DNA of 39,604 nt from a virus. The notes under the pieces were generated by a model. The model was not told where the DNA came from. It made no database searches and saw only the letters and a program-made list of their open reading frames with translations. Position 1 is the first letter of the stretch. Every line of letters starts with the position of its first letter. Of the stretch, positions 679 to 2,612 are shown in pieces. Both the position numbers and the translations under genes were made by a program. Location: positions 1 through 39,604 of the IMG/VR virus record IMGVR_UViG_3300020180_000049, one strand, 5' to 3'.

Positions 679-1800
679 ATGAACAACCTTTACCCCGTGA
701 CCTCTACCAACCGCCCAGCCGTTCGCCGGCTCCTCCGCGCCCTCGGCATGGGCGGCGTGTCCCTGCTGTCCTTGAGCGAGTTGTCCGAAGCCCTGGCGCG
801 CCATGTGTCCACTGGCGAACTGTCCTTGGAATCCGCATCGGCCGCGCTGGTGTCGCGTGGCGATCAGAAGGAAGACTCTGACGATGCCCCTGTCCGGGCC
901 GACCGTGCGCCTGTCCAGACGCAGGATGCCGCCCTTCAGGCTCTCCGGACCTTGCTGGTGAACCCGGGCATCGATGCGGATGCGGTCCGGTCCATCGTTT
1001 ACGATGAGATTGCAAAGCTTGATCTGGCGCGGCCCGTCGTGGTCATTCAACCCGGCAAGTCCTCGGTGGATCTGCCAGGGCTTCAGCACCCGATTTTTGA
1101 CCGTGTCCTTCAGGCCGCATCTGCCAACGTGCAACTGTTTATCATCGGCCCGGCCGGGTGCGGAAAGACGCACCTCTGTGATAGCGTCGCCCAGGCGCTG
1201 TCCCTGCCGTTCCACATGAATGGATCACTGGTGAGTAGCTTTGAGGTCCTGGGATACCGGGACGCCACGGGGAACGTAACCAGAACTGCCTTCCGCAATG
1301 CCTTCGAGAATGGTGGGCTGTACCTTGCCGACGAAATAGACGCATGGGACGCACGGGCCCTGCTCGCTCTGAATGCTGCGCTGTCCAATGGATACGCCGC
1401 GTTCCCGGACGGCATGGTTGCGCGTCACGCAGACTTCCGGATGATTGCTTGCGGTAACACTTGGGGTACCGGAGCAACGCCCGAGTACGTCGGCCGCACC
1501 CGGCTTGATGCCGCGACTCTTAATAGGTTCGTCCGGATGACCATGACCTACGATGAGAAGCTGGAGCGGTCAATGGTCCCTGGCGAGTACGGAGCGTGGG
1601 TTGATACCGTGCAGCGGGCCCGTGCTATCGTCCTTGAACTGGGCATCAAGGTTGTCATCAGTCCCCGGCAGACAACCCAAGGCGCGGCCCTCCTCGCTGC
1701 CGGCTGGCCCAAGGCCGACGTTTTAGATGCGGTCCTCCTGGCTGGCATGGACGAAGCCACGCGGGGGAAGGTCATGGCCAAACTGGCGAGCCGGTCATGA
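679..1800 (+). CDS. CobS/MoxR-like AAA+ ATPase
   Basis: A 373-residue AAA+ ATPase. Walker A GPAGCGKT lies at residues 157-164, Walker B LADEID at 216-221, followed by a sensor-1-like strand ending in CGNTWG and an arginine-rich segment (GRTRLD). This arrangement is that of the MoxR/CobS group, whose members remodel partner proteins together with a von Willebrand A or CobT-like subunit. The first 110 residues are a less conserved adaptor-like region. The ATG at 679 is preceded by GGAG at 665-668; the frame is open upstream to a TTG at 556 but that part has no motif. It overlaps the next gene by ATGA, so the two are probably made as a pair. Its role in the phage (host takeover or virion maturation) is unknown. 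Confidence 0.88.
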   Translation: MNNLYPVTSTNRPAVRRLLRALGMGGVSLLSLSELSEALARHVSTGELSLESASAALVSRGDQKEDSDDAPVRADRAPVQTQDAALQALRTLLVNPGIDADAVRSIVYDEIAKLDLARPVVVIQPGKSSVDLPGLQHPIFDRVLQAASANVQLFIIGPAGCGKTHLCDSVAQALSLPFHMNGSLVSSFEVLGYRDATGNVTRTAFRNAFENGGLYLADEIDAWDARALLALNAALSNGYAAFPDGMVARHADFRMIACGNTWGTGATPEYVGRTRLDAATLNRFVRMTMTYDEKLERSMVPGEYGAWVDTVQRARAIVLELGIKVVISPRQTTQGAALLAAGWPKADVLDAVLLAGMDEATRGKVMAKLASRS

Positions 1801-2612
1801 ACCCGGCCGGTATGTTCAAGGACGTAGTCCGGTCCTCTTACCAGCAGGTCCTAGACCGGGCCGAGGGCCGCAAGAGCGCAGGGCTTTGGGATAACGTATC
1901 CATCGCGAGCCCGCGGGCGGATTGGACCGGGTTTGTCAATCTGGACGAAGCCCTCGACCTTTGCCGGACCGGCTGGGCGGAGGGCGCTGCGAAGATGTCC
2001 GCAATCGAAAGTCTTGCGTCCGGGATTGCGCTAGCTCCGGTCCCGAGTCTCGCAATAGCGGGACATTTCCCCGTGGTCCCCGAGTTCCTGGCAGGCAACC
2101 CGGAATGCATGATCGACCTTGCGGGTGCCACCGAACCGCGCAGGCTGACGGTAGTCATGACGCTATCAACCCCGTGCACCACGAGCGGCTCGTGGATGCG
2201 GGACACTTACGCTCCGGCAGTTGCTGCCACGCTCCGCGGGCTTCAGGTTGCGGGCATCTCGGTCGCTGTGGTGGGCATTGACGGAGGAGGAGGAGAAACC
2301 GACAAGGTTGCCCATGTCATCGATGTCTGTCGGCACGGGGATGCGCTCGACCTCGACAGGCGCGCGATGGTCGCGCACCCGGCTTTCCTTCGGCGCGTCA
2401 TGTTCGCGAATCGGGAGACGATGCCAGGATGGAAGAGCAAGGCTACCGGGAACTACGGCCGGCCGCTGACACTGGATGATGGAATGATGGATGTCCTCCT
2501 ACCGGGGGAGCGCGCGGTCATGCTCCCGGGCCCAGCGGCCCTGAATAACGCATCGGCGGCCGACTGCGTTGCGGCAATGGTCCGGTCATGCATGGCCATA
2601 CTGGAGGCCTGA
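1797..2612 (+). CDS. Partner protein of the AAA+ ATPase, CobT/VWA-like
   Basis: A 271-residue protein whose start overlaps the ATPase stop (ATGA), which argues for a functional pair. The centre has alternating hydrophobic strands (LTVVMTLS near residue 120, then ISVAVVGIDGGGG near 155) resembling a Rossmann-like von Willebrand A fold, the usual partner of MoxR/CobS ATPases. I do not see an intact DxSxS metal site; the first strand reads LSTPCTTSGS instead. The C-terminal part (AVMLPGPAALNNASAADCVAAM) could close such a fold. The VWA assignment therefore rests on context and strand pattern rather than motifs. It ends the first early operon, followed by a 189-base gap with a promoter. Confidence 0.6.
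   Translation: MNPAGMFKDVVRSSYQQVLDRAEGRKSAGLWDNVSIASPRADWTGFVNLDEALDLCRTGWAEGAAKMSAIESLASGIALAPVPSLAIAGHFPVVPEFLAGNPECMIDLAGATEPRRLTVVMTLSTPCTTSGSWMRDTYAPAVAATLRGLQVAGISVAVVGIDGGGGETDKVAHVIDVCRHGDALDLDRRAMVAHPAFLRRVMFANRETMPGWKSKATGNYGRPLTLDDGMMDVLLPGERAVMLPGPAALNNASAADCVAAMVRSCMAILEA

Follow-up and report, generated by a model that had tools for sequence, protein, structure and literature searches.

A phage gene pair coding for a MoxR-type ATPase and a predicted VWA-like partner with a degenerate MIDAS

Introduction

Pairs of a MoxR-type AAA+ ATPase and a VWA-type partner are already known, and few targets of these machines have been described. In NorQD, a finger of NorD enters the pore of NorQ and meets its helix-2 inserts, and the MIDAS is required for the target but dispensable for NorQ binding (PMC13036017, PMC9976466); the helix-2 insert (H2i) motif of NorQ, GRxLL/IxxxxT, contacts NorD (PMC13036017). 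Viral CobST pairs are likewise on record, CobT being described as MIDAS-bearing, and a hijacking of CobN has been proposed for them (PMC8651126).

Both phage protein families considered here have also been catalogued before. The ATPase family, phrog_249, carries the database name ‘porphyrin biosynthesis’, and discussions of viral CobS treat it as a cobalamin gene, an assignment that is poorly supported for the DUF7192-paired form; DUF7192 and phrog_1909, to which the partner belongs, are both labelled ‘unknown function’, and we found no paper mentioning DUF7192. Here, we describe such a pair in an IMG/VR virus record of 39,604 bases, analysed over its whole length and referred to as the window. 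To what was known, the analysis adds the recognition of DUF7192 as a predicted VWA-type partner with a putative finger and a degenerate MIDAS, shows how strictly it is linked to the ATPase and provides evidence that speaks against the porphyrin label.

Results

Locus and genome setting

In the window, the pair precedes all other coding units and lies ~680 bases from the contig end. A previous sequence-only reading had described an AAA+ ATPase with the motifs GPAGCGKT (residues 157–164) and LADEID (residues 216–221), the stop of which overlaps the start of a 271-residue partner, and the open reading frames bear this out (Table 1); several relatives share the 4-base overlap. Further downstream, the plus strand carries genes for a helicase, DNA polymerase, exonuclease, dNMP kinase and metallophosphoesterase, and the minus strand those for the capsid, portal, terminase and lysis amidase. 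The same reading had taken the pair for the first early genes. The gene order is consistent with this view, in that the pair leads the replication strand and lies opposite the structural genes, but a promoter and terminator scan upstream of the ATPase gene gave no excess over shuffles, and our literature search for MoxR proteins in connection with phage early transcription returned nothing.

Table 1. Features of the ATPase–DUF7192 locus in the window
Feature	Position	Strand	Remarks
MoxR-type AAA+ ATPase, 373 aa, phrog_249, CbbQ/NorQ/CobS class	679..1800, stop included	+	ATG start
DUF7192 partner, 271 aa, predicted VWA-like fold, degenerate MIDAS	1797..2612, stop included	+	ATG start
ATGA stop/start overlap coupling the ATPase and partner genes	1797..1800	+	
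Helix-2 insert of the ATPase, residues 188–202, predicted short beta hairpin	1240..1284	+	AF2 secondary structure, conservation
Putative finger-equivalent segment of the partner, residues 87–108, IAGHFPVVPEFLAGNPECMIDL	2055..2120	+	Conservation; aligns with NorD/CobT finger region
Degenerate MIDAS position of the partner, residues 122–126, TLSTP replacing DxSxS	2160..2174	+	

Upstream of the pair, the non-coding stretch at 97–190 contains repeated TTATGT blocks and a 32-base repeat, the two copies of which (110–141 and 149–180) are 78% identical. In Sinorhizobium phage phiM5, for which terminal repeats are annotated, the start of the ATPase gene lies ~530 bases into the repeat, and the gene is directed towards the interior of the genome and followed by DUF7192. 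Megablast against GenBank returned no near-identical phages.

The ATPase

The ATPase matches Pfam AAA_5 (E 1.1e-7) and phrog_249 (E 6e-51), far above chance, and 423 phage records match it in turn; as a query against bacterial genome contigs, it found no relatives. All catalytic residues, namely Walker A K163, Walker B D218-E219, sensor 1 N260, the Arg finger R283 and sensor 2 R330, are invariant in 52 of 52 dereplicated relatives. Its proposed assignment to the MoxR/CobS type is upheld by both structure and profile comparisons: the AF2 model (pLDDT 88.9) finds CbbQ2 and NorQ as its best Foldseek matches (E 1.5e-13 and weaker), and the PDB matches of the ATPase profile are led by Midasin, followed by CobS, CbbQ and NorQ. 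The CobS model TIGR01650 matches 50 of 69 ATPase relatives (best E 2.5e-13), the window ATPase itself giving no match at E 1e-3.

In the AF2 model, the helix-2 region consists of a helix (188–191), paired strands near 193–201 and a second helix (204–211), with G192, D195, G198 and Y200 conserved. The predicted short hairpin occupies the place of the helix-2 insert, the beta hairpin of the MoxR class. The NorQ-specific H2i motif is absent from the phage ATPase, and the family shows GxxDAxGxY in its place.

Family and predicted fold of the partner

The partner matches Pfam DUF7192 (PF23822) with E 3.9e-16 (59.6 bits against a curated cut-off of 27 bits) and phrog_1909 with E 2.4e-16. A single-protein query found no close relatives, and an alignment query was required to recover them. 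The AF2 model (pLDDT 86.7, pTM 0.84), predicted from an alignment of 72 diverse members whose identity to the window protein is only ~20%, shows the order strand–helix–strand–strand–helix. The sequence-only reading had suggested a VWA/CobT-like protein, and the predicted fold, compared with VWA/CobT structures, did not prove unrelated to them. Against 350,542 PDB chains, ranks 1–4 of the Foldseek list are NorD VWA domains solved in NorQ rings (E 0.0065–0.13, prob 0.63–0.95), followed by other VWA domains; the global TM-scores to the NorD domains are low (~0.26) and the structural similarity is, therefore, partial. Among BFVD structures, the neighbours past other DUF7192 proteins are nearly all phage CobT/VWA proteins (first E 1.3e-4, prob 1.0), including those of Gordonia phages and haloviruses.

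Profile comparison also points to a VWA relationship. Against a set of six NorD and five plasmid CobT-like VWA sequences, hhalign gave DUF7192 a score of 35.4 (E 2.3e-4, probability 44%), as compared with 13.1±2.3 (maximum 20.2) for 60 column shuffles and 12.7 for the ATPase profile against the same set; the separate sets gave weaker results (E 0.0045 for NorD alone, 0.012 for the CobT-like sequences alone). The confident stretch of the alignment extends from the finger through strand 1 and helix 1 to strand 2. Given the TM-score of 0.26 and the hhalign probability of only 44%, the VWA assignment of DUF7192 is a remote one. None of the 72 members passes the Pfam VWA families, a single CobT_C match (E 0.14) being taken as noise, and a sequence search of the PDB with DUF7192 returned only noise.

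Two further peculiarities of the family were observed. In L001 and related rhizobial phage loci, DUF5710 is present as an additional domain at the N terminus of the DUF7192 proteins and might be an exchangeable part that recognizes the target; 12 of the 72 members match it (best E 5.5e-5). A single metagenomic phage contig (L056, 2326–3519) has DUF7192 spread over two reading frames, either by a real break or by an assembly error.

A conserved putative finger segment and a degenerate MIDAS

Conservation within the family peaks at partner residues 87–108, a stretch that aligns with the pore-entering finger of NorD, but is shorter. Of its columns, G89 and M105 are kept in all 56 DUF7192 members, P102 in 55 and G100 in 54. 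Ahead of D-x-S-x-S, NorD displays the motif G..LDLD......G...R.. and the plasmid VWA proteins G..LD......G..R.F; the DUF7192 counterpart is G..VDVGR.L.GEPECM ahead of [NED]-x-x-x-S. The window partner departs from its family in having VVPE in the finger, where the others have D-V-G-R, and Tyr at R138.

The partner had been noted to lack an intact DxSxS, which proved correct: the aligned residues are T122-L-S124-T-P126. Because D-x-[ST]-x-[ST] is kept in only 3 of 56 members, and the MIDAS is degenerate in the other 53, the loss applies to the DUF7192 family as a whole. Past strand 2, the alignment posteriors are too low to place either the MIDAS Thr or the second Asp; the invariant R199, considered as a substitute for the MIDAS threonine, was dropped on account of these low posteriors. 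Metal insertion into a target, an activity that the sequence-only reading had mentioned for MoxR/CobS ATPases, is disfavoured by the family-wide degeneration of the MIDAS and by the lack of CobN in 12 pair-bearing phage records. Finger conservation together with MIDAS loss is the pattern that would be expected, by analogy with NorQD, if coupling to the ATPase were retained and the gripping of the target altered.

Linkage and distribution

When IMG/VR was scanned with the DUF7192 alignment alone, the ATPase was found directly upstream on the same strand in 44 of 44 loci; conversely, DUF7192 was located downstream in 27 of 29 loci retrieved with the ATPase alone, and in the two exceptions (L054 and L072) the sequence ends 250–320 bases past the ATPase. 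No other gene family is universal across 53 non-redundant pair loci and, accordingly, no third partner is evident. The pair is present in Staphylococcus Kayvirus, Listeria phages P100 and LP-037, Lactobacillus phage 3-521, Acinetobacter phage Bestia and crAss phage cr114_1, as well as in Rhizobium phages and cluster-L mycobacteriophages. DUF7192 had no match in a control set of 14 genomes from bacteria and archaea. In a Rhizobium etli plasmid (L087, 4938–5791), the ATPase gene is present as a broken copy that extends over several frames, probably a phage remnant.

Natural loss in mycobacteriophages

Mycobacteriophages MiniMac (L097) and MiniLon (L098) are 98.7%–99.8% identical over the compared right end, apart from a 5.7-kb deletion in MiniMac. 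The deletion, which corresponds to positions 2986–8737 of L098 and has ~21 bases common to both edges, takes out the ATPase, the adjacent DUF7192 gene and roughly a dozen small genes, and leaves in place a second DUF7192 copy further away. As MiniMac, which was isolated on M. smegmatis, naturally lacks the pair, the latter can be dispensed with under laboratory conditions. In phage Nicholas, too, the ATPase is missing and a single DUF7192 gene remains. Two DUF7192 paralogues, one adjoining the ATPase and the other 3–4 kb downstream, are found in cluster-L mycobacteriophages (L002, L029, L041, L043, L044 and L045), and it is the distant paralogue that persists in mycobacteriophages that lost the ATPase.

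Discussion

Taken together, these observations suggest that the pair is probably a compact, NorQD/CobST-like protein-remodelling machine with a MIDAS-less VWA-type adaptor, an accessory module most likely directed at a host factor. The ATPase would form a ring, presumably a hexamer, in a putative 6:1 assembly with the adaptor. DUF7192 would sit in this ring with its conserved finger segment in the pore, where, by analogy with NorQD, it may be contacted by the helix-2 inserts. ATP hydrolysis would then move the adaptor, so that a bound target protein is twisted or strained. With its degenerate MIDAS, the partner probably does not grip the target through a metal at that site and might hold it instead through another surface or through its ~80 N-terminal residues. 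The module is accessory and non-essential, with a host factor as its most likely target during infection. Action on a host complex is plausible: for a portable accessory module of two genes with no fixed phage partner, a host-side target is the easiest explanation.

A remodeller internal to the phage, whose role would lie in DNA recombination and replication or in the assembly of virions and not on the host side, is the strongest competitor, if still an unlikely one. Related MoxR–DUF3150–VWA cassettes on conjugative plasmids adjoin genes for SSB, RecT/Bet and lambda exonuclease, which leaves a role in DNA metabolism open, and the window pair itself lies upstream of replication genes; however, neither the lack of a conserved third gene over the 53 loci nor the natural deletion in MiniMac and the absence of the pair from Nicholas is readily reconciled with such a function. 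Somewhat harder to sustain is a phage-borne conflict or superinfection-exclusion module of the IetAS-like or MoxR–vWA ternary type, aimed at other phages. The accessory distribution of the pair and weak matches to IetA/IteA and bpMoxR models speak for it, but the matches to IetA cover just short P-loop stretches and lie far below the cut-offs, PADLOC has no match for the partner and neither an effector domain nor a protease is attached, all of which makes this reading quite improbable. Membership in IetAS proper, with full-length IetA and IetS, was rejected on the same P-loop and partner results.

That the two proteins are viral cobaltochelatase subunits which work with host CobN and raise cobalamin synthesis for the phage can, despite the name of phrog_249, the similarity of the ATPase profile to CobS and the viral CobT proteins among the structural neighbours of the partner, be regarded as very improbable in view of the degenerate MIDAS of the partner family, the missing TIGR01650 match of the window ATPase, the absence of CobN (0 of 12 pair-bearing phage records) and the occurrence of the pair in Staphylococcus and Listeria phages. 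Staphylococcus hosts are not known to synthesize cobalamin, and Listeria hosts use an anaerobic cobalamin pathway without CobNST. Membership in CobNST was rejected for want of CobN in these 12 records.

Returning to the host-directed remodelling machine, a bolder version may be formulated, although we lean against it as it stands: DUF7192 would found a class of VWA-type adaptors specific to phages and independent of metal, in which the finger is under strong constraint and the metal-adhesion site lost, and which, together with a CobS/NorQ-like ring, would constitute a portable, non-essential remodeller for host takeover or counter-defence across unrelated Caudoviricetes. Recognizing DUF7192 as a VWA-type protein without a MIDAS provides a testable function for two widespread families, and MiniMac and MiniLon form a ready-made comparison pair that offers a direct route to a MoxR/VWA target.

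Comparison with known systems

The pairs of phrog_249 and phrog_1909/DUF7192 in Staphylococcus, Listeria, Mycobacterium and Rhizobium phages comprise the same families in the same order, and the window pair is a member of this group. The MOBH plasmid cassettes encode a related ATPase (profile E 2.4e-32) and a VWA protein with the finger motif described above, but differ in the extra DUF3150 gene, the intact DxSxS, the length of the VWA protein and the linkage to bet, exo and SSB genes. In the cassettes of plasmids L086, L093, L094 and L095, this neighbourhood of SSB, RecT/Bet and lambda-exonuclease genes is seen in most cases; in L095, the annotation shows no ATPase between the exonuclease and DUF3150.

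The viral CobS/CobT pairs of haloviruses and cyanophages (PMC8651126) resemble the phage pair in being two-gene viral combinations of a MoxR ATPase and a VWA-type partner, and the structures most similar to DUF7192 in BFVD, other family members aside, are those of viral CobT/VWA proteins. These proteins are, however, mostly larger (about 430–860 aa), whereas DUF7192 is compact and has no VWA Pfam match. NorQ/NorD (PMC13036017, PMC9976466) shares with the phage pair the juxtaposition of a MoxR ATPase and a VWA-type partner, a place among the best structural neighbours of both phage proteins and a conserved segment, putatively equivalent to the finger, ahead of VWA strand 1. By contrast, the phage partner is far shorter than NorD (271 versus ~640 aa) and lacks the DxSxS MIDAS, the sequence of the helix-2 insert is different, there is no NorBC target and the system is phage-borne. 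Because the MIDAS is not that of CobT or NorD, DUF7192 should not be filed as either, but it resembles them in the testable features, apart from the MIDAS and the insert motif specific to NorQ.
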